DNA from: Rhizophagus irregularis
Taxonomy: Eukaryota; Glomeromycota; Glomeromycetes; Glomerales; Glomeraceae
Reading direction: 5' to 3'
Assembly (NCBI RefSeq): GCF_026210795.1
Contig: NC_089433.1
Coordinates: 4,551,001 to 4,615,000 of the forward strand
DNA length: 64,000 nt
In this document: in pieces, positions 3,960 through 61,026 of the stretch
Position numbering within the stretch: the first letter of the stretch is position 1
Layout of the letters: every line of letters starts with the position of its first letter
Position numbers and translations under genes: made by a program
The notes under the pieces: model-generated
What the model was told of the DNA's origin: nothing
The model's database searches: none
The model's input: the letters and a program-made list of their open reading frames with translations, nothing else

Positions 3960-5000
3960 TCTATCTATTGTGTATGTTGCAGTCAATTTAACATTTTGGT
4001 GCTTCTGGTTTATTTATTTCAGGTCTAATTCCCCTACAGATTTCAAATGCTAATATTTCATCATGTGCAAATTTGTCAAAAGGTTATCTTCCAGTTACTA
4101 AAAAATACATCTCTGCTAAATCCATATCTGAATTACAAAATATATAACTACCATAATATAAAAACTAATAGTTGCCAATATATTTCCTGTATGAAAATCA
4201 CGATGAACCTTGATGAATATTTATTTTTAAGACCAATAATAATAATGTTTAATAATGCATCAAGATTATATGACCAATCAAGTTTATTATAATGCTTATT
4301 TATCCAATAACATACTATATTTCCACCTCTTGCACAATCAAGAACATAATATAATCTATCCTTCCATATTGCTGAATAAATTGTAGCAAACCCACCTTCA
4401 TCTATTTTTTTAATATTTTTAAATTGGTTATAATGTAAAATATTATATCATTCGGTTCATTAAGTTTTTAATTGCATTTCTTAAATTATCAATTTTTCAT
4501 TTCCAATTGTCCATTTTGTAAAATTTAGTTTTAAATTGTTTACCTGAACATTCTAACACCATTTATATATTACACGAACAGATTTCACCACACTTTTTAC
4601 AATATGATGAAAAATAATGATATAAGAATTTGTATCTGGATCTTGAGATGTTTCATATATCGATACTAAATTTTGCTAAATATTTATTAACCTATAAAAT
4701 AAAAAAAAAACAACCTTTTTATTTGAATTTCTTGTCCATTTTTTATTATAACCAAATAAATAATGGACTATTTTCCATCTTGCTAAATATATCGTAACAA
4801 AATCATCGCTTATTTTTTGAATATCCTTTATTTTTATATTTATCGAAAATATAATTATGACAAACTACACATATTTCAAAAATATCCACAAATTCGCATT
4901 CAACAACAGATGATGCGAAATAACTTCCTGATGAAGAAAAAACTTTTTTAGATAAAAAAATTTTTCGTTCAGAAATAAACATTATTAACTCTTTTTAATA
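3960..5000 (-). pseudogene. protein-kinase relics (at least one copy, probably two)
   Basis: Read on the minus strand, fragments of the Rhizophagus-type kinase appear in the correct order but in several frames. From 4980 to 4600 there is an N-lobe-like stretch (FVTIYLARW, then TSQDPDTNSYIII). From about 4540 to 4370 a second lead-in appears with K-W-T-I-G-N followed by YNQFKNIKKIDEGGFATIYS. From 4260 to 3990 come a catalytic-loop remnant (V-H-R-D-F-H-T-G-N-I-L across a frame change) and a C-lobe piece, FDKFAHDEILAFEICRGIRP. Several stops and frameshifts separate them. This is a dead gene or two overlapping dead copies; the kinase identity is secure from motif order. Confidence 0.7.
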
Positions 5001-28069: not shown

Positions 28070-29326
28070 TTAATTATTATTTGTATTTAAATATCTCCTC
28101 TGATGATTATTCCATAATAAATCACATATTGCATTTCTTATAGCATTACCTTCTGATGTTTCATTAACATTTGTTTCACTATTTACATCAGTTCCTGTAT
28201 CATGATATTGTTCTTCTGGTGGTAAAAAATCGCGTCTTTCTTCACAAATATTATGGAGTATACAACAAGTAGTTATCATATGTGGTATTATTTCAAATGA
28301 AACTTCTAAACTATGAAGAAGACATCTCCATCTACCCTTTAATAAACCAAAAGCTTGTTCTACTTTGATTCTTGTTTGTGAATGTTTACAATTGAAATAT
28401 GTTTGTTTTTGAATTAATCCTCTACCTATATCTTTATAAGGAACTATTAACCAACTAAGATTCGGATATCCTCCATCACCTAATATGTATTTATTATTAA
28501 AAGTTGTTACTAAATTATTAAACTTATTATATAGATTAGAATTTACTAAAATTCTACTATCATGTGTAGAACCTGGCCAACCAACACATATATCTAAAAA
28601 ACTTGTTTTATGGTCAACTACTGCTTGTAAAACAATTGAATAAAATCCTTTTCTATTAAAATAATCTACAGGAAATAGATGAGGTGCTTTAATTGGTATA
28701 TGACTACCATCAATAGCTCCAATAACATTAGGAATTCTTCCAGTACCTTTGAATCCATTTGTAATTTCATTAATTTCTGATTCTGTATTTGGAAAAACAA
28801 TTTTTTCCGCTAGAAATTTTGTAACTATTACATTAATAAAATCTCTTAATGCATAACTAAAAGTTGATTCTCCCATTCCAAACCTATTACCTATAGACCT
28901 AAAACATTCTCCAGTAGCAAGAAACCATAATGATGCACCAACCTTTTGTTCCCATGCAAGTCCAACTATACCAGGTCCTGTAATTTCTCTTCTTAAATGT
29001 GGTATTATTTCACAGCATAACCATTCGAATGTAGACCTGGTTAACCTAAAATGTCTTTTAAATTCAAAATCTTGCATATTTAAACATATTTCATTAAACC
29101 AATACTGAGATATTGATCTATTTAATCTTCTTAAATTGATGCACTCATTAATTTCTATTCTATTAAGTTGTAAATATAGCAAGTTTAAAGGTAAAATGTT
29201 AAAATTTTCTTCCTCTTCTTCTTGTTCAGTTTGATAAGTAGCAATTAAATTTTCTTCAAATTCATTATATTTAATAAGTATAATAATTATTAATATACAA
29301 ATTGAAATTTGGAATTCCCTGTTCAT
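28070..29326 (-). CDS. PIF/Harbinger-type DDE transposase
   Basis: Uninterrupted 418-codon ORF. A helical N-domain (FKRHFRLTRSTFEWLCCEI) is followed by an HTH-like region (WFLATGECFRSIGNRFGMG). The DDE nuclease then shows GAIDGSHIPI (first Asp), WPGSTHDSRI with GDGGYPN (second Asp), and RIKVEQAFGLLKGRWR (Glu). All acidic residues are present, and the length is usual for the family. It should cut at the GGGGTCTTCAC ends and insert into short targets. With intact ends and an intact ORF the element may be recently active, but its Myb-like partner is broken in this copy. Confidence 0.92.
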   Translation of the reverse strand: MNREFQISICILIIIILIKYNEFEENLIATYQTEQEEEEENFNILPLNLLYLQLNRIEINECINLRRLNRSISQYWFNEICLNMQDFEFKRHFRLTRSTFEWLCCEIIPHLRREITGPGIVGLAWEQKVGASLWFLATGECFRSIGNRFGMGESTFSYALRDFINVIVTKFLAEKIVFPNTESEINEITNGFKGTGRIPNVIGAIDGSHIPIKAPHLFPVDYFNRKGFYSIVLQAVVDHKTSFLDICVGWPGSTHDSRILVNSNLYNKFNNLVTTFNNKYILGDGGYPNLSWLIVPYKDIGRGLIQKQTYFNCKHSQTRIKVEQAFGLLKGRWRCLLHSLEVSFEIIPHMITTCCILHNICEERRDFLPPEEQYHDTGTDVNSETNVNETSEGNAIRNAICDLLWNNHQRRYLNTNNN

Positions 29327-31319: not shown

Positions 31320-32350
31320 TTTTTGTATAACAAAAGTGAATCACATTTTTACGCGAATTTTTAATATTTTCATGTCAAATTTTTTTGTGAATCATCAAAT
31401 TCAAGATAAAATGTGTACCAACGCAAAATTTTAGCATATATTTAATATAAAAATTTTGGACTTTTACTATGCAGATATCATTTATTATAGTTATTTATAT
31501 ATAAAAATAAAGTGAATCACATTTCTGCATGAATTTTTAATATTTTCATGTCAATTTTTTTTTGTGAATCATCAAATTCAAGTCAAAATGTGTATCAACG
31601 CAAAATTTCAGCATATATTTCATATAAAAATTTTGGACTTTTACTATGTTAATATTATTTATTGCAATTATTTACATATAAAAATAGTGACATAGAAAAG
31701 TCCAAATTTTAAATGAAATATATATTGAAATTTTGCCTTGATATACACAATGTCTTGAATTTGATGATTCACAAAAAAATTTTAATATAAATATATTAAA
31801 AATTGATGTAGAAATGTGATTCACTTTATTTTTATATATAAATGACTGTAATAAATGATATCTGCATAATAAAAGTCCAAAATTTTTATAAGAAATATAT
31901 ACTGAAATTTTGTGTTGATACACATTTTGACTTGAATTTGATGATTCACAAAAAAAATTTGACATGAAAATATTAAAAATTCATGCAGAAATGTGATTCA
32001 TTTTATTTTTATATATAAATAACTACAATAAATGATATCTACATAATAAAAGTCCAAAATTTTTATAAGAAATGTATACTGAAATTTTGCGTTGATACAC
32101 ATTTTGACTTGAATTTGATGATTCACAAAAAAAATTTGACATGAAAATATTAAAAATTCAGAAATGTGATTCACTTTATTTTTATATATAAATGACTATA
32201 ATAAATGATATCTGCATAGTAAAAGTCCAAAATTTTTATATTAAATATATGCAAAATTTTGCGTTGATACACATTTTATCTTGAATTTGATGATTCACAA
32301 AAAAAATTTGACATGAAAATATTAAAAATTCGCGTAAAAATGTGATTCAC
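31320..32350. repeat. ~175-bp repeats in inverted orientation around 31670
   Basis: Units containing GTGAATCACATTT, ATTTTCATGTCAAATTT, TGATTCACAAAAAA and AAAATTTTGGACTTTTACTA occur about twice left of 31670 and four times, inverted, to the right. This is the core of the foldback. Short ORFs through it are artefacts. Confidence 0.85.
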
Positions 32351-33138
32351 TTTTGTTATACGAAAAATCATATATCAAACCTCGCAAATCGGAATTTGTC
32401 AGTAATTTCGAAAACGGCAATAAAAAAAATTTCAAAAGAAATTCTATCCTATCAAACAAAGCCTTTGCCTATATTAAAAATAAAAATTCTCTACAAATTT
32501 GTTTATTAAAAAAAGCCAATAATAAAAAAAATTATTCGTGTAAAATTTAAAAAAAAAAAAAATTTTTAAAACTACGCTAAACTTAAAAACATGTGATCGA
32601 CAAAATATCAACCCTGTACTGACAAAGAAACTAATTTTTGACAAAGATAAAATTATCGAGTATAGTTGGATTAAATCAAACACAGTTGGACAAAAACATC
32701 AAGCACAGACGGACAAAAATATCAAGCACAGATGGATAAAAACATCAAGCACGTACAGATAAAATATCAAGCACATACAGATAAAACATCAAGCACGTAC
32801 AGATAAAATATCAAGCACGTACAGATAAATATCAAGCACGGACAAATGAATATCAAGCATGAACAGGTAAAATGTCAGGCACGGTGTAACATTTTGTCAA
32901 TCCATGCTTGATTCGGCTTGCCATACTGTAACACCTGCTGTACCTGCTGTACCTGCCGTAAAATGTGGCATACTTTGTCAAGTATGGCTCGAAAATCGAA
33001 ATAGTGATCACATAATAAATTTTGCATAAATATTATTACCATATTTACTCATACTAATAGGGCGTTTAATAAAAAAAAGAAAAAAATAGATTTTTTTTTT
33101 TTATTCAGTTAGGGAATATTTTGATATAATAAATAGTA

Positions 33139-36100
33139 ATGGGTCAATGTATTGGTAAAGGTAAAAATCGTATATATAGTATGAACATTTGATACAATAA
33201 GAATTTTAAAATTTTTAACAAATTGACAATATAATAAAACTAGTTTCTGGTAGTGTTAATAAAAAAAATGGCTCTGAAGAATCTGAAGGAAGTACCGAGG
33301 AATATGAAGGTATATTAAACAAGCTGAAATATTAAAATACTTATCTATAAATAAACCTATATATAATATATAACTAACTAAATTATATAAAATCATATTA
33401 AATAATTTAGCTCGTAAGTTAATAGGTTGTTTTATAATTAAATAATAACGGAATTACTTATTATTTTTACTATATTCTATGTAACTAAATATACTATAGT
33501 TTGTAAGTTATCAGTTATTTAAATTTTTAGTTTTTTACTTTATTTATATTTACATAATATTCAAATAACTAATAAATTCTTTGTTTTAAATAACTAATTA
33601 ATTATATTACAGCTGGTAAGTTATAATATTATATTTAATATTATATTTATTTATTAATATTTTACTATAATTTAACTAATTATACTCCTAATTTAAATAA
33701 ATAGATTGTAAGTAATATATTCAATTTATAGTAAATACCTTTCTATTATATTTATATCAACTAATTAAGAATTAATAATAATTCAGGGTGTAAGTTATAT
33801 GATGTCTATATTTCTATTATTTATATAATTTAAGCTAAATTCTTTATTTAAAAAATTATTTGTAATTTCTTTTAGTTGGTAAGTTATTTATTTAATTCTA
33901 TTTTACTTATTGTTATAATATTTACATATAATATAAACTAACAAAATCCTTTATTTAAAAAATTATTTTAATAATATAGGGAGTGAGTTATTTATTTAAT
34001 TCTATTATTACTACTTCTTTACAGAAACTTCAAGAATGGCTTAATGCGCAGTAACTGCATATATGTAATTTCTTTACAATTGCATAATGTGGTCACTATG
34101 TATTTATAACGCAGTTACCACGCATTAAGCCATCGCTACGATCTTGAAGTTTCTGTAAAGTTATTGTTATAATATTTACATATATTTAAACTAACTAAAT
34201 TCTTATTTAAAAAATTATTTAAATAATATAGAGAGTGAGTTATTTATTTAATTCTATTATTACTTATTATAATAATATTTACATATAATTTAAACTAACT
34301 AAATTCTTTATTTAAAAAATTATTATATAGATGGTAAGTTATTTATTTAATTCTATTATTAATCATTGTAATAATATTTACATATAATTTAAATTAACTA
34401 AATTTTTTATTTAAAAAAATTATTTAAATAACATAGCTCGTAAGTTATTTATTTAATTCTATTATTACTTATCATTATATAATTTAAGCTAAACTAACTA
34501 AATTCTTTATAAATTATTTTGTAATTCTTTTAGATTGTAAGTTATAATTTATTTATTTAATTCTATTATTACTTATTGTTATAATATTTATATATAATTT
34601 GAACTAACTAAATTTTTATTTAAAAAATTATTTAAATAATATAGGGAGTAAGCTATTTATTTAATTATACTATTCTTATTGTTATAATATTTACATATAA
34701 TCAAACTAAACCAACTAAATTCTTTATTAAAAAATTATTTTGTAATTTCTTTTAGATTGTAAGTCATAATTATTTATTTAATTCTATTATTACCTATCAT
34801 AATAATATTTACATATAATTTAAATAAATTCTTTATTTAAAAATTATTTTTGTAATTTCTTATACTAGTTGGTAAGTTATTTATTTAATTCTGTTATTAT
34901 TTATTGTTAAAATATTTACATATAATTTAAACTAACTAAATTCTTTATTTAAAAAATTATTTTATAGATGGTAAGTTATTTATTTAATTCTATTATTACT
35001 TATTATTATAATATTTACATATTATATAAACTACTAACTAAATTCTATATTTAAAAAATTATTTAAATAATATAGGGTGTAAGTTATTATTTATTTAATT
35101 TTATTATTACTTATTGTTATAATATTTACATATAATTTAAACTATCTAAATTCTTTATTTAAAAAATTATTTAAATAATTTAGGGTGTAAGTTATTTATT
35201 TAATTCTATTATTACTTATTGTTATACTAAATTCTTTATTTAAAACTTATTTTGTAACTTTTTTTAGTTAGTAAGCTATTTGATTAATTCTATTATTATT
35301 TGTTGTTATAATATTTGCATATAATTTAAACTAACTAAATACTTTATTTAAAAAATTATTTTATAGATGGTAAGTTCATATTTAATATCTATTATTATTA
35401 TTTGTTATAATATTTACGTATTATTTAACTAACTAACTAAATTTATTATTTAATAGATCGTAGGTTATAAGTTATTATTTAATTCTATTATTACATATTA
35501 TTATAATATTTACATATAATTTAAATTAACTAAATTCTTTGTTTAATAGATCGTAAGTTATAACTTATAAGTTATTTATTTAGTTCTATTATTACTCATT
35601 GTAATAATATTTGCATATAATTTAAACTAACAATTCTTTATTTAAATTATATAAATATATAGGGTGTAAGTTATTTATTTAATTCTATTATTACTTATTG
35701 TTATACTAAATTCTTTATTTAAAACTTATTTTGTAACTTTTTTTAGTTAGTAAGCTATTTGATTAATTCTATTATTATTTGTTGTTATAATATTTGCATA
35801 TAATTTAAACTAACTAAATACTTTATTTAAAAAATTATTTTATAGATGGTAAGTTCATATTTAATATCTATTATTATTATTTGTTATAATATTTACGTAT
35901 TATTTAACTAACTAACTAAATTTATTATTTAATAGATCGTAAGTTATAAGTTATTATTTAATTCTATTATTACATATTATTATAATATTTACATATAATT
36001 TAAATTAACTAAATTCTTTGTTTAATAGATCGTAAGTTATAACTTATAAGTTATTTATTTAGTTCTATTATTACTCATTGTAATAATATTTGCATATAAT

Positions 36101-38999
36101 TTAAACTAACAATTCTTTATTTAAATTATATAAATATATAGGGTGTAAGTTATTTATTTAATTCTATTATTACATATTGTTATAATATTTACATACATTT
36201 TAAACTATCTTAATTCTTTATTTAAAAAATTATTTTGTAATTTCTTTTAGTTGGTAAGCTATTTATTTAATTCTATCATTGCTTATTGTTATAATATTTA
36301 CATATAATTTAAACTAACTAAATTCTTCACTTGAAAAATTATTTAAATAATATAGGGTGTAAGTTATTTATTTAATTCTATTATTACTTTATATTGTTAT
36401 AATATTTACATTTGTTTAAACTAACTAAATTCTTTATTTAATAGATCGTAAGTTATAAATTATTTATTGCTTACATTATTACTTATTGTTATTATTATAA
36501 TATTTACATATAATTTAAATTAACTAAATTCTTTATTAAAAAATCATTTAAATAATATAGAGAGTAAGTTATTTATTTAAATCTATTATAGTATTATTAC
36601 TTATTATTATAATATTTACATATAATTTAAACTAACAAATCCTTTATTTAAAAAATTATTTTAATAATATAGGGAGTGAGTTATTTATTTAATTCTATTA
36701 TTACTACTTATGATATTTACATATATTTAAACTAACTAAATTCTTATTTAAAAAATTATTTAAATAATATAGAGAGTGAGTTATTTATTTAATTTTATTA
36801 TTACTTATTATAATAATATTTACATATAATTTAAACTAACTAAATTCTTTATTTAAAAAATTATTATATAGATGGTAAGTTATTTATTTAATTCTATTAT
36901 TAATCATTGTAATAATATTTACATTTAATTTAAATTAACTAAATTCTTTATTTAAAAAAATTATTTAAATAACATAGCTCGTAAGTTATTTATTTAATTC
37001 TATTATTACTTAGTATCATTATAATATTTACATATAATTTAAGCTAAACTAACTAAATTCTTTATTTAAAAAATTATTTTGTAATTTCCTTTAGATTGTA
37101 AGTTATAATTTACTATTTATTTAATTCTATTATTACTTATTATAATAATATTTACATATAATTTAAACTAACTAAATTCTTTATTTAAAAAAATTATTTT
37201 ATAGATGGTAAGTTATTTATTTAATTCTATTATTACTTATTGTTATAATATTTACATTTAATTGAAACTAACTATTTAATTTCCTTTAGATGGTAAGTTA
37301 TTTATTTAATTCTATTATTACTTATTGTGATAATATTTACATATAATTTAAACTAACTAAATTTTTATTTAAAAATTATTTAATAATATAGCTTGTAAGT
37401 TATTTGTAATTTTATTGTTATATATTTTATATTTATTTGTTAACTGTATTCTTTCATTTAAAATTTCTATTACTTTAGTTGGTAAGTTGTGAAATATAGC
37501 TTATTATTATTATATATATTTGTACAAGAACTAAGACATATATTATCTTAAATTCCAATTTAAATTTTAGAGTGAGTGTTAATTTTAATCTTAAATTTTG
37601 TGTCAATTTTATTATGAACTTTAATTATTTAAATTTATAGATTTGGAAAAAGTGGAAATACAATTATAGATAAATTTATCCTTGAAAAAAGATTAAAATG
37701 GATTCCTTATAATAAATTTAAAAATGTTGAATATCTTAATGAAGGAGGATTTGGTACTATATACAAAGCTATTTGGTTAAAAAATAATGAAGATAATAAA
37801 GAAGTAATTCTTAAATGTCATAATAATTTAAATGAAAATTTAAATGAATTTTTAAATGAAGTATGATAGTATATTATTTATTTTTTTCAATTTGAATTAT
37901 AATTTACTTATATTAATATATTATTATTTTTTATAGTGGAAATATCATGAAAGATGTTTAGATTCAATTGAAATTATTTATTTTTATGGATTTACAAAAG
38001 ATCCAGATACTTTAAAATATATGGTAGTAATAGATTATGCAAACAAAGGTAATTTAAGAGGAAACTTAACAAGAATAATCAAAAATAATTGGGATCAAAA
38101 ATTATATATGTTGTGTGAAATTATTTCTGGACTTAATAGTATACATGAACAAAATCTTATTCATTGTGATTTTCATGATGGTAATATTTTAAATCATAAT
38201 GAGGATAAAATTTATGTTAGTGATTTAGGATTATGTCAGCCTGTAAAATCATTTTTGAAAGAGTATAATATTTATGGTGTTGTACCATTTATGGCACCTG
38301 AAGTTTTAAGAGGCAAATCTTATACTCCAGCTAGTGATATATATAGTTTTTCTATGATTATGTGGGAATTTACATCTGGTACGCCACCATTTAACAATAG
38401 AGCACACGATATTCAACTTAGTTTAAGTATTTGTAAAGGTGAACGTCCTGAAATTATTGAAAATACTCCACAATGTTATGTAGATTTAATGAAAAAATGT
38501 TGGGATGAAGATCCATTAAACAGGCCATCTTCTAAGGAAGTTTTAAAAACTATTATAAAATGGATTGGTCTTCCTTCTAACAAGAAAATTAAAGATATTG
38601 ATAAAGAATTAAAATGTAATATTATGGAATTTATAAATGCACCAATTGGGCATAACATTCTTACTACTGAATCTCATCCACAGGCTTGTTATACAAGTCG
38701 CATACTTGATTTTACTAGTAAAAAATTGAATGAAATTCTTGAAAGTGAAGATTTGAATAGTTGTATAATTAAAGATTTGAAGTCATTAGGTATGTAATAT
38801 AGTATATATAAAAATTAATCTTGCAAATCATTTTTGTGAAATTAATTTATTATTTAATATTAAAACAGATAAAAATACTAGTAAAAAATTGAATGAAATT
38901 CTTGAAAGTGAAGATTCACAAACTTATTATGCAAGCCATTCTTCTACTGGCATAACTGAAGAGTTGGATGATTGTATAATCAAAGATACAAGTAATTAG
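33139..38999 (+). CDS. protein kinase with an N-myristoylation-type start and an array of ~40 three-base microexons
   Basis: Exon 1 (33139-33160) encodes MGQCIGK, with Gly2 and Cys4 as in myristoylated/palmitoylated proteins. Exon 2 (33244-33309) encodes SGSVNKKNGSEESEGSTEEY. Then follow 40 predicted 3-nt exons (33411-37481) and a 1-nt exon at 37571. Next are 37641-37860 (SGNTIIDKFI, WIPYNKF, GGFGTIYKA, Lys128), 37937-38789 and 38869-38999. All joins are in frame, for about 470 residues. The catalytic loop reads HCDFHDGN (219-226) instead of HRD, and DFG is DLG (239-241); APE is present. Asp and Lys are kept, so activity is possible but altered. If the intron at 38790 is retained the protein ends at 38797. 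The kinase domain is certain; the exon array is inferred from splice motifs and phase. Confidence 0.7.
34017..34160. mobile_element. 144-bp MITE inside one cassette intron
   Basis: CTTTACAGAAACTTCAAGA at the left is mirrored by TCTTGAAGTTTCTGTAAAG at the right; inside, GGCTTAATGCG and its inverse continue the palindrome. The paralogous cassette near 36700 has the same flanks without the insert, giving a natural empty site. Target duplication is ambiguous (TA or TT). Confidence 0.85.
35187..36144 (+). repeat. two near-identical ~479-bp segments, each five cassettes
   Basis: 35187-35665 and 35666-36144 match almost base for base; a visible difference is GTAGGT versus GTAAGT at the fourth donor. 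Each half contributes the triplets TTA, ATG, ATC, ATC and GGT, that is the codons for N-D-H-R-F. This is a recent tandem duplication. Confidence 0.9.
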
Positions 39000-56828: not shown

Positions 56829-59800
56829 ATGACATTGGTAAAAGAATGGATTGAAGAAAAGATAAAGAATGAGTATATTCGTTATTTTGAACACGATAAA
56901 TTTAGTTATATCGAAGAAATTGATGAAGGATCTTTTGGTGAAGTGATAAAAGCAAAATTGGCTAATATAGGATTTGTCGCACTAAAAATTATTGTTAAAA
57001 AAAATTCAAAAGAGAAACTTAGAGATGTAAACAATGAGTTTGTCAAGGAGGTAGGAATCGTAATTTTATGTTGTTGGTAGAGTATTAATAGCTTGGTATA
57101 TAAATATAAATTAAGTTTATTTTTATTTTTAGTTAAAACTCCTTCGTGAGATTGATCATCATCCAAACATCAATCGTATTCTGGGAATAACAAAAGGTTT
57201 AGTTTTTTTTTTTGGAATAATTCATTTATAAAGTTCAATATAACTTATTTATGTTCATAATTATTAGATTCTAAGTCTTATATTTTGGTTCTGGAATATG
57301 CCAATGAAGGAAATTTAAGAGATTATTTAGAAAATAATTTTGCTTCCTTGGAATGGAATTATAAAATTCAAATGGCGTTAGATATTACTAGTGGATTGAA
57401 TTTTTTACACTCCAAAGAAATAATCCATAGAGACTTGGTAAGGCGTATTAATTTTGTTTTATGATTTTGTGATTTTGTCTCTGATGATAAATTTAATAAA
57501 TAATGTCATTTATTTTTTAGCACTCAAAAAATATATTAGTGAATAATGGAAGATTATTGATTGCAGACTTTGGATTATCTAAAAAGTTGGCAGAAGTCTC
57601 AACTAATTCAATTGGTAATAAAAAGGGGATTACTCAATATATTGATCCACAATGTTTTAAGAATATAAAGTATAAGAAAGATAAGAAGTCCGATATCTAT
57701 AGTTTAGGTGTTTTATTATGGGAAATTTCAAGTGGGCGTATTCCTTTTTTTGGCTGTACACTACTTGAATATCACATTAAAAATGGAGGTAGAGAAGATC
57801 CCATTGAAGGCACACCTCCAAAGTATGAAAAACTTTATCAAGAATGTTGGGATGACAAACCAGAATTAAGACCTGATATTGAAAAAGTACATGAAATTTT
57901 AGGTCAATTAAATACTGAGAATTCTTCTGATCTACAATCTTCACTTAACAAAAGTAATTCGGAAGGTGATGACTTATATATATCTGATTATCCAAGAGGT
58001 AAGTTTATATACTAATTAATTAATTACATGGTCTCAATACTAAATATTACCGAACTTAATTATTTTAATCAACTAGAAAAAGTTAAAAATCTTCTGATAA
58101 TTGGCGGTACTTTGAGCGGTAAATCATTGTTATCCAACATATTGTGTGATATTGAAAACGGATGTACAAGTAACGAGACCAAAGATTTATCGAAAAAAGA
58201 TTTCGAATGGAATGGAACGAAATATCACGTGATTGAAATTGTAATTTGGTCTATTGAAAAAGTTATTTATAATAAAATAACAGATTTGATGCCAGAAGGG
58301 ATAAGCCAATTCTTATTTTTGGTTGATGAAAGCTTTACAACAAGAGAAGAAATAATGTTTGAGTTATTTAAAAAAATTATTTTCGAAACCGGTATTCTTC
58401 AATATGTTACTATTATTCAAAACAAGCGTGAAAGGGATCAAAAATATGTGTTTGAAAATAAAATAATTGCTGAAATAGTTAAGTCATGCAATGGTGTAGA
58501 TAATTTCTCAATAGATATTGATAAAGAAGAAAACAACAATGATTATGAAGGACAAAATATTATTGATAGAAATGTAAAGAAAGAGATAAGAAATAAATTA
58601 CTAAATTACTTGGAAGAAAATTTTCAGGAAAAATATTACAAATTAGAAAAATGGGATGATATATATAGTAAGATTGCTAATTACGCTAAATCAGATATGA
58701 GTTTTGTTGAAGTGGAAAAAGCTGATATCACAAGTAAGTTAATTTAATTAACTAAATTGATTAACATTAGAACTAATAATTCCTATGCTATTAATCAGAT
58801 ATGACTTCAGATATTTTCAAGAATTTATTTAACTATATTGACAGTGAATCAAAAAAAAGAGATCAACAATGGTTTAATGAAAAATATTCAGAAGCGGAAG
58901 TTATGGATATTACTGATAACAGACGCTTAAATCTTACTGATTCTTTAAAAATAGAAGGTTTTGAAAATTTAAAAAGAATTAGAATAAAGAAATTTAAATT
59001 AATTAGTTTGGAAATAAGAAATTGTTCTCAACTTAATGAGATTAACTTAGTAGAGCTTCCTATACTTACGAGTTTATCTGTAACTGGCTGTTCAAACCTA
59101 ACCATGATAACTGAGTTAACCAGTTTGAAAATTAGTGATTGCTCTCAACTTAATAAGGTTTACTTTTCAAATCTTCCTAAAATTAAGAGTTTATCTGTAA
59201 TTAACTGTTCAAAATTAACCAATTTTAATTGTTCATCAACTGAATTAGCTAGTTTGAAAATAAGTAATTGTCCTCAGGTTGATTTATCAAAACTTCCTAA
59301 AATTATTAGTTTAAATCTAATTTATTGTTCAAATCTAACCACACTTGATTTTTCATCAAATGAATTAACCAGTTTGAAAATAATTAATTGTTCTCAACTT
59401 AATAAGATTGACTTGTCAAGAATTTCTAGAATTATGAATTTATCTATTATTAGCTTTTCAACCCTAATTACATTTGATAATTTATCAACTGGCTTAACCA
59501 GTCTGAAAATAAGTGATCATAGCTTGTCAAAGTTCACCAAACTTGAAAGTTTATCTATAACTGAATGTACGCTTGCAACTAAGTTAACAAATTTGAAAAT
59601 AATTGGTTATTCTCAACTTAATAAGGCTGACTCATCAAATCTTTCTAAAACTATGAGTTTATCTGTAATTTACTGTTCAAATATAACCATGCTTGATTGT
59701 TCATTAACTGAGTTAACTAGTTTGGAAATAAGTGATTTTTCTAATAATATTGACTTATCAAAACTCACCAAACTTAACAGTTTATCTTTAACTAAAATTT

Positions 59801-61026
59801 TAAATCTACTCACGTTTGATTTTTCATCAATTACATTAACCAGTTTGAAAATAAGTAATTGTTCTCAACTTAACAAGGTTAACTTGTCAAAATTTCCTAA
59901 ACTTACAAGTTTATCTGTAACTAATTGTCAAAAATTAACGAACCTTGATTGTTCATCAACTGAGTTAATTAGATTAAAAATAAGTTGTTGTTCACAAATT
60001 TATAATATTGACTTGTCAAAGCTTTCCAAGCTTGAGGGTTTATCTGTAACTGAATGTTCAAATCTAACTACTCTTAATATTTCATCAATTGGATTAACTA
60101 GTTTGAAAATAAGTGATTGCTCCCAACTTGAAGGGATAGATTTGTCAGAATTTCCTAATCTTATGAATTTATCTGTAACTAATTGTCAAAATTTGCCCAA
60201 TCTTGATTGTTCATCAATTAAGGCATTAGGTCAAAAACATGAATTTCCTAATTATTTTTTCACCAATAGTCCAGGAAGAAAAAATTTATTAATAATTGGC
60301 ACCATTCATTCTGGTAAATCTGCATTAGCTAACGTAATATGTAAAACTAAGTTTTTTGAAGAAAATGGATGTAATTCAAAAGATTTTCAAGAATATGATT
60401 TTGTTTGGAATAATACAAATTATCATGTGGTTGATATTAGAGTTAATTTAATTGAAAATGAAATTTTATATAAGATAGGACAAGTAATATATTCAATGCC
60501 GGAAGGGATAAGCCAAATTTTATTTGTAGTTGACCATAGATTAACGGCAGAAGAAATAAAAAAACTTAGTGAAATTGAAGAAGAAATTTTAAAAATCGAA
60601 ATTTGCAAAATTACTACTATTGTCAGAACTAAATTTGAAGACTTTAAAAGTAAAGATGAGTGCAAAAAAGATGAAGAAAATCTCTATAGTTTAAACAAAA
60701 AAATATTTATCAAAAATATATTTACTAATAAACCTCCAATCATTCATGTAGACAATCCATCAGCACATATTTATGTTTATGATAGTGATGATGATGCTAC
60801 AGTAAATTACATTGGTAGAGGAAGAAGAGAAAAGTCAAGAACTATACTCCTAGAACATTTGAATAAAGTATGTTCAGAAAAATACAAATTAAATATGTGG
60901 GATAAGTTGTATGAGTCTAATATGTCAATAGATAATTTAGATAAACAGAAATTAATAAAATCATATTTAAAATTATATGATCCTGACGTTGTTAAAATTA
61001 TCAAAAAACTAGTAAATGGGGAATAA
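56829..61026 (+). CDS. kinase - P-loop GTPase-like - LRR - P-loop GTPase-like multidomain protein
   Basis: Six exons (56829-57050, 57133-57196, 57268-57437, 57521-57998, 58077-58733, 58799-61026), all GT..AG and in frame, give 1272 residues. Kinase domain: glycine loop IDEGSFGEV (31-39), Lys53, HRDL (149-152), DFG (168-170), YIDPQ, SDIYSLGVLLWE and C-lobe CWDDKPELRP. Then Walker A GGTLSGKS (321-328) opens a first domain that also has VIEIVIWS, MPEGISQFLFLVDE and TIIQNK. Residues about 560-1010 are around 20 short leucine-rich repeats (LTSLKISNCSQLNKVNL type). A second copy of the G domain starts at GTIHSGKS (about 1026) with YHVVDIR, MPEGISQILFVVDH and TTIVRTK. The layout of both G domains resembles AIG1/GIMAP GTPases, though the D-x-x-G motif is not typical. 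Role unknown; a sensor is a fair guess. Alternatively it is two or three adjacent genes. Confidence 0.75.

Follow-up and report, generated by a model that had tools for sequence, protein, structure and literature searches.

Can a gene be assembled largely from exons of a single codon each, and would such exons be retained in the mature mRNA? This question is raised by a predicted protein kinase gene of Rhizophagus irregularis that is located in C5:4551001-4615000, the 64-kb stretch of DNA analyzed here (hereinafter, the window; the genome assembly as a whole consists of 146.7 Mb in 32 contigs). Between the second exon of this gene and the exons encoding the kinase domain, there is an array of 40 units, each consisting of 3 nucleotides (nt) enclosed between a splice acceptor and a splice donor. 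We consider it very probable, judging from the sequence, that these units are 40 genuine constitutive microexons that are spliced in, in order, and translated. Together with a 1-nt exon that follows them, the triplets are predicted to encode a stretch of approximately 40 residues that separates the N-terminal tail from the kinase domain. The gene and exon boundaries were read from the sequence, and the genome-wide counts given below come from one assembly and are lower bounds for repeats.

The motif AG-NNN-GTRRG is present in 40 of the 40 units at 33411-37481, in agreement with the preliminary description of this locus, which had reported exactly 3 nt between each acceptor and the next donor. 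When the pattern AG-N(k)-GTRRG was counted in 33301-37700 for k from 0 to 30, k=3 was found 40 times, k=1 four times and k=20 once; three of the four k=1 matches are an AG within AGA triplets, and the remaining one corresponds to the terminal 1-nt unit. In the rest of the window, the k=3 pattern occurs three times on the forward strand and once on the reverse strand. The 42 introns between exon 2 and the kinase exon are 69-249 nt long (median 96.5), and 36 of these contain a YTRAY motif 10-70 nt from the acceptor, a count that carries little weight in DNA of approximately 14% GC and is uncontrolled for chance. The predicted product consists of 429 residues and contains a kinase domain that is recognized by both PF07714 (E 4.1e-42, residues 99-348) and PF00069 (E 1.7e-37), whereas a scan of the window against Rfam yielded nothing reaching the gathering score.

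The reading frame of the gene depends on the 1-nt exon. When entered with one carried base, all 40 triplets are open, and without the triplets and the 1-nt exon a stop codon follows after nine codons; both these features had been pointed out previously. If only the 1-nt exon is left out, the frame is broken within ten codons; if the triplets are left out and the 1-nt exon is kept, the frame remains intact. The triplets cannot supply the two bases that the kinase exon requires before its first A, and exon 2 carries only one, so it is the 1-nt exon, at 37571, that sets the frame, a role that the preliminary description had not recognized. The signature TAG-A-GTAAGT followed by the start of the kinase exon is found at 88 places in the genome, compared to 0 in the backwards control; the gene in the window, with the donor GTGAGT, is additional to these. 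Triplet arrays are present upstream in 12 of the 12 places that were fetched from among the 88, having been picked by hand for varied intron types. In all 25 loci in which the 1-nt A exon was found, G is the preceding base, where T would give TAA; the last units of these 25 loci are closely related and are mostly TTG. Among the relatives, exon 2 varies in length by threes: of 19 loci tried, it was recognized in 13, and in 12 of these its length is divisible by 3. In one relative, L006 (a reverse-complemented locus), the 1-nt exon is T rather than A, and directly upstream of the kinase exon, where the relatives carry TTG, AG abuts GTAAGT, resulting in a zero-length exon.

The avoidance of stop codons at consecutive as opposed to skipped junctions provides an RNA-free way to tell inclusion of such triplets from skipping. 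Each microexon contributes one codon's worth of bases, split across neighboring codons: in the exon-2 phase, a codon is composed of the last base of one triplet and the first two bases of the next, which are approximately 95 nt apart in the DNA, and a stop requires a triplet ending in T before one opening with AA, AG or GA. We counted such stops in 38 loci of the kinase family, namely 20 found by using the 5' part of the gene as a DNA query, 5 that were the first places in the list of pattern matches, 12 from the list of 1-nt exons, and the gene in the window; locus L022, which belongs to a different gene family described below, was excluded, and only pairs at most 140 nt apart were taken as consecutive. 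Among the 1,009 consecutive junctions of the 38 loci, there is not a single stop, compared to a mean of 31.8 in 1,000 shuffles (standard deviation (sd) 4.6, minimum 18; a repeat shuffle gave a mean of 31.5). The same result was obtained with distinct pairs (0 of 387, 15.5 expected), with the first 26 loci (0 of 677 consecutive pairs against 20.6, with a minimum of 10 in 2,000 shuffles), and with only the 12 later loci (no stop in 332 pairs, against 10.8 expected and a minimum of 4 in 1,000 shuffles). The other phase that crosses the junctions shows no avoidance, with 127 stops in the first 26 loci, where 98 are expected, and 38 in the 12 later loci, where 38.1 are expected; the triplets themselves include stop codons, four in the first set and one in the second, as expected if the triplets are not themselves read as codons.

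The avoidance is confined to immediate neighbors. At distances of 2 to 8 units, 26, 18, 24, 17, 16, 14 and 9 stops were observed in the 38 loci, the respective shuffle means being 26.9, 22.9, 20.5, 17.5, 15.8, 14.1 and 12.5; the lowest counts relative to the expectation, at distances 3 and 8, are each slightly more than 1 sd below it. A stop at distance 2 is present in 16 of the 38 loci, and at distance 1 in none. At consecutive junctions, T never precedes AA or GA triplets (0 of 41) or AG triplets (0 of 82); given that T|AA and T|GA are avoided alongside T|AG, this is not merely the avoidance of a new AG acceptor. The bases preceding AG triplets are A in 31, C in 20, G in 31 and T in 0 cases at consecutive junctions, as against 20, 20, 17 and 19, respectively, two units apart. 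That stops are missing at distance 1 and at no other distance indicates that selection has acted on the triplets as linked to their direct neighbors.

These counts also bear on the proposal, made in the preliminary description, that units could be skipped without loss of frame, so that a single gene could yield very many in-frame isoforms, with anything from 0 to 40 residues added. Such combinatorial use is compatible with the phase neutrality of all triplets, with the frame being kept when exon 2 is joined straight to the 1-nt exon, with the variation by exon skipping reported for flatworm micro-exon genes in the relevant part of PMC7653826, and with the somewhat low number of stops at distance 3 (18 against 22.9, sd 4.1). 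However, stops that would result from skipping one unit occur at the chance rate (26 against 26.9, in 16 of the 38 loci), and this also applies to distinct pairs (14 against 13.9) and to the first 26 and the 12 later loci taken separately (16 against 17.2 and 10 against 9.75, respectively); with the stops from skipping two units also near chance, the proposal finds no support. Productive skipping common enough to be seen by selection thus is not supported by the sequences, although 26 stops are too few to argue against modest, rare or non-productive skipping; free skipping of the units appears improbable.

The preliminary description had offered a choice between a chain of genuine microexons that contribute one codon each and a recursive-splicing ladder. 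The stop avoidance at consecutive junctions strongly supports the former and tells against the latter, in which the array would be a ladder or a decoy repeat within a single 4.3-kb intron and the triplets would never appear in the mature mRNA. A ladder could account for the intact frame when exon 2 meets the 1-nt exon directly, and the unit of L006 with AG directly before GTAAGT is a zero-length site of the ratchet type. Nevertheless, discarded triplets would not avoid stops, least of all in the exon-2 phase and at consecutive junctions only, and with AG and GT located 3 nt apart, stepwise use of these sites would retain the triplets. A ladder of this kind seems very unlikely.

The arrangement is not restricted to the gene in the window. 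The genome-wide search for other arrays that the preliminary description had proposed returned 2,997 matches to a chain of two consecutive 3-nt exons, compared to 22 in the backwards control; the same chain gave 3 matches with 4-nt exons and 9 with 6-nt exons, the controls giving 3 and 6, respectively. Three overlapping matches of the 6-nt pattern fall at C21:741112-741494, with a match to the terminal 1-nt exon signature approximately 0.5 kb downstream at C21:741975, and possibly represent a small array of 6-nt exons. Chains with GTATGT only and gaps of 55-85 nt gave 0 matches. The array had been described as belonging to one kinase gene; the gene assignment stands, but the layout is no single case: dozens of relatives share it, as does a second gene family with different introns. 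Of the 416 candidates retrieved with the 5' part of the gene as a query, the first 40 were scored, the window included, and these have at least 260 bases matched at 69% identity or more. The kinase exon was recognized in 32 of the 38 loci. The 38 family loci and L022 together contain 608 strict matches, which correspond to 1,212 units; scaled up from these 39 sequences, the genome would contain roughly 6,000 single-codon exons, an extrapolation from loci that were selected for carrying arrays or family ends.

The 3-nt exon length is also recovered when it is not imposed. In a splice-chain fit that allowed exons of 0 to 60 nt, 721 of the 753 internal exons are 3 nt long and 16 are 1 nt long; the fit covered 27 sequences including L022, 3-nt units served to train its site model, and in several loci the chain spans the array only in part. 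Among 438 homologous units that were recognized by the start of the intron, AG-NNN-donor is kept in 433, 412 being intact and 21 having a weaker donor. This count of intact units replaced a comparison of the conservation of donors and acceptors with that of the intron interior, which was unusable given that a short insert shifts the register and the interior is nearly uniform. A candidate unit with a weaker donor was found in 45 of the 64 gaps of 150-240 nt (L003, L009, L016 and L022 excluded), but only the 3-nt spacing was sought, with no chance control, and the number is not used as evidence of spacing. The arrays are open in 24 of the 25 modelled loci, several of these models being partial; in the exception, L036, a 6-nt exon, TTATTG, at position 4717 (reverse-complemented) is missed by the 3-nt pattern, and reading it removes the stop. 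The remaining 13 of the 38 loci were left unmodelled where the pattern misses the terminal 1-nt exon, which is accounted for in L006 and L017.

In many members that were modelled to the start, the encoded stretch begins with A-L-x-D-W or near variants; it ends with F-E-F-G-K-S-G-N or near variants, and the middle is variable. Across the 38 loci, 1,008 of 1,138 triplets open with TT, AT, GG, CT or AG, whereas the third base varies far more. N-myristoylation was considered on account of the MGQC start, but a pattern search placed this start in no locus other than the window, L001 and L023, other members beginning with, for example, MAHSN, MALSN or MACSN, and we make no such claim for the family.

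A second gene family shares the 3-nt layout. Locus L022 (C1:1725500-1733000) contains a gene that by eye encodes a coiled-coil protein, with an array upstream in which the introns are quite different from those of the kinase family and the exons are again 3 nt long: with the donor GTRAG, there are 46 matches at k=3, 5 at k=1 and 0 at the other spacings up to 12 nt. In L040 (C17:3900400-3904400), a relative of L022, the counts are 17 at k=3 and 1 each at k=2 and k=4. The downstream exon of L022, as read, implies the stop-free phase, but the expected number of stops in that phase is 0, so the test is powerless here.

In the array of the window, a 479-nt block of five units is duplicated in tandem at 35184-36141. 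The two copies agree at 478 of 479 bases, which shows that the array has grown recently; the tandem periods are 479 nt and approximately 99 nt. The longest intron of the array contains a hairpin insert of approximately 140 bp at about 34020-34160 that resembles a miniature inverted-repeat transposable element; a duplicated unit at 36671-36777 lacks the hairpin and represents the empty site, and the triplets flanking the hairpin are intact. Clearly, the units are tandem duplicates, with periods from approximately 84 to 99 nt in addition to the 479-nt block, and the intron interiors are similar, as would be the case if the array were a functionless satellite within an intron that inherited its 3-nt spacing from one founder unit. 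Such a satellite, however, is not expected to avoid stops in a phase- and distance-specific manner, nor would it account for a second gene family with the same layout and different introns, and we give this explanation next to no credence.

Several observations weigh against genuine constitutive microexons. The loci and units are related by duplication, and the junctions accordingly are not independent; relatedness, however, acts on all distances alike, distances 2 to 8 serving as the control, and cannot account for stops being absent at distance 1 only. In one of the 13 loci with a recognized exon 2 (L013), this exon, 130 nt long, is out of frame as read, possibly reflecting a decaying copy or another splice site. 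No kinase exon was recognized in the fetched stretch of 6 of the 38 loci (L002, L003, L005, L011, L016 and L019), and 5 of the 438 homologous units are broken. An intronless copy with spliced junctions was sought by two patterns, with 0 and 3 matches, and none was found; two of the three matches read as ordinary acceptors and the third (L039) was judged on reading to be a chance match. Finally, among the best 150 of 3,627 protein candidates, none spans the array without stops; seven of the 150 continue stop-free past the start of the kinase exon into the upstream sequence, for 7 to 14 residues.

Constitutive inclusion of the triplets would entail an unusual course of splicing. With an acceptor and the next donor 3 nt apart, the two sites probably could not be used at once, and the introns would therefore probably be removed one at a time. 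Each splicing event would fuse a triplet to the growing upstream exon and expose the next donor, a ratchet as in recursive splicing except that three bases would stay each time, and repeated rounds would walk splicing along the array. The zero-length unit of L006 fits a continuum with recursive splice sites. The units probably multiply and vanish as blocks of exon plus intron; the frame is preserved by any whole number of units, a property that may have allowed 3-nt exons to multiply, and the gain or loss of one unit would change the protein by one residue. Our guess is that the variable stretch is a linker of adjustable length and composition.

Comparison with known systems places the array in a structural class. 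Micro-exon genes (MEGs) have been defined by the presence of at least seven exons, at least half of which are shorter than 70 nt and divisible by 3 (PMC7653826); our sequence-based model includes 45 exons, 41 of which are of this kind (the 40 triplets and the 66-nt exon 2) and form an uninterrupted run. In structure, the gene would accordingly be an extreme variant of a MEG, with almost exclusively single-codon exons, and found in kinases. The Schistosoma genes additionally vary through exon skipping, whereas here the stops at skip junctions are not avoided, which is an indirect test; in view of the lack of a skipping signal, we assign the gene to the structural class only and not to the Schistosoma-type MEGs. 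According to the passages of PMC7653826 and PMC10526429 on the flatworms Schistosoma, Echinococcus and Hymenolepis, MEGs similarly contain consecutive, phase-neutral tiny exons that make up most of the exons of the gene, form multi-copy families and are poorly caught by gene finders. As outlined in PMC10526429, MEG exons are mostly 15 bp long (range 6-81 bp in the text and 3-81 bp in the abstract), the introns reach 5 kb, the products are secreted, and the central exons are alternatively spliced. The R. irregularis array differs in that nearly all exons are 3 nt long, the introns are approximately 95 nt, the product is a kinase, the organism is a fungus, and there is no clear trace of skipping.

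The exons of aphid bicycle genes exceed single codons, and bicycle and megacycle genes encode insect effector proteins. Like the array, these genes contain numerous small internal exons that with few exceptions share one phase, and one aphid gene has more than 100 microexons, as stated in PMC9168663. For the inclusion of a 1-nt exon, the relevant section of PMC8831610 provides a precedent in plant APC11 and VPS55, where 1-nt exons between two introns were confirmed by RNA-seq and reverse transcription PCR; the plant genes described there have one or two such ultra-short microexons each, not dozens. In a filamentous fungus, Trichoderma virens, Xlr2 has a functional microexon, a single regulated one with no array, according to the portion of PMC11121469 that deals with it. 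With recursive splicing through ratchet sites and recursively spliced exons (RS-exons), the array shares acceptors and donors that nearly abut, and splicing probably proceeds stepwise. Classical ratchet points retain no bases. Recursive splice sites have the acceptor abutting the donor, whereas 3 nt lie between these in 40 of 40 units, and three bases per unit would be kept and translated. The paper on the long-read annotation of R. irregularis (PMC10234402) describes nanopore RNA reads and lists 2,533 kinases, and its main-text passages on exons, introns, kinases, splicing and tandem arrangements do not mention such arrays. A literature search by title and abstract, with subscription journals and preprints mostly outside its range, retrieved no description of arrays of single-codon exons among the papers listed.

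Predicted features of the kinase gene (positions in the window)
Feature	Position	Strand	Details and basis
Exon 1	33139..33160	+	ATG; MGQCIGK, 1 base carried
Exon 2	33244..33309	+	66 nt; final carried base G
Array of 40 single-codon microexons, complete introns between	33411..37481	+	pattern count, splice-chain fit, gene model
Microexon 1, CTC	33411..33413	+	gene model
Microexon 2, TTT	33500..33502	+	gene model
Microexon 3, CTG	33613..33615	+	gene model
Microexon 4, ATT	33705..33707	+	gene model
Microexon 5, GGT	33787..33789	+	gene model
Microexon 6, TTG	33876..33878	+	gene model
Microexon 7, GGA	33980..33982	+	gene model
Microexon 8, AGA	34232..34234	+	gene model
Microexon 9, ATG	34331..34333	+	gene model
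Microexon 10, CTC	34437..34439	+	gene model
Microexon 11, ATT	34534..34536	+	gene model
Microexon 12, GGA	34645..34647	+	gene model
Microexon 13, ATT	34756..34758	+	gene model
Microexon 14, TTG	34869..34871	+	gene model
Microexon 15, ATG	34968..34970	+	gene model
Microexon 16, GGT	35076..35078	+	gene model
Microexon 17, GGT	35184..35186	+	gene model
Microexon 18, TTA	35268..35270	+	gene model
Microexon 19, ATG	35367..35369	+	gene model
Microexon 20, ATC, donor GTAGG	35457..35459	+	pattern count, gene model
Microexon 21, ATC	35550..35552	+	gene model
Microexon 22, GGT	35663..35665	+	gene model
Microexon 23, TTA	35747..35749	+	gene model
Microexon 24, ATG	35846..35848	+	gene model
Microexon 25, ATC	35936..35938	+	gene model
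Microexon 26, ATC	36029..36031	+	gene model
Microexon 27, GGT	36142..36144	+	gene model
Microexon 28, TTG	36251..36253	+	gene model
Microexon 29, GGT	36356..36358	+	gene model
Microexon 30, ATC	36445..36447	+	gene model
Microexon 31, AGA	36561..36563	+	gene model
Microexon 32, GGA	36673..36675	+	gene model
Microexon 33, AGA	36773..36775	+	gene model
Microexon 34, ATG	36872..36874	+	gene model
Microexon 35, CTC	36978..36980	+	gene model
Microexon 36, ATT	37095..37097	+	gene model
Microexon 37, ATG	37205..37207	+	gene model
Microexon 38, ATG	37290..37292	+	gene model
Microexon 39, CTT	37392..37394	+	gene model
Microexon 40, TTG	37479..37481	+	gene model
1-nt exon (A), frame setter for the kinase exon	37571..37571	+	gene model; donor GTGAGT
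Kinase exon 1	37641..37860	+	gene model, domain match, protein search
Kinase exon 2, through the stop codon	37937..38797	+	open reading frame list, gene model, PF07714

Elsewhere in the window, 177-bp tandem repeats form two arrays in opposite orientation upstream of the gene, at 31333-32353; of the 303 15-mers of the first array, 182 are found in the reverse complement of the second and 0 in direct orientation. An open reading frame encoding 741 amino acids at 58801-61026 contains 117-129-bp tandem repeats and appears leucine-rich by eye. Another one, encoding 418 amino acids on the reverse strand at 28070-29326, presumably resembles a Harbinger-type transposase.

Three-base exons are near the presumed floor of what splicing handles and are usually described singly. 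The gene family described here would push the known limits of how small exons can be and how many of them a gene can contain. We lean, with only modest confidence, towards a broader picture in which approximately 6,000 single-codon exons reside in arrays in at least two unrelated families, dozens of introns are removed in strict order, and the arrays act as diversifiers of length and sequence, one residue at a time, between the tail and the kinase domain. Exons of 3 nt and 1 nt are difficult to place, and the N-termini of many kinases in this family may therefore be misannotated. Occurring dozens in a row and in dozens of genes, such exons would provide a system for the study of ordered splicing through sites that can barely be occupied together, as well as of the cost of splicing errors and the multiplication of introns.

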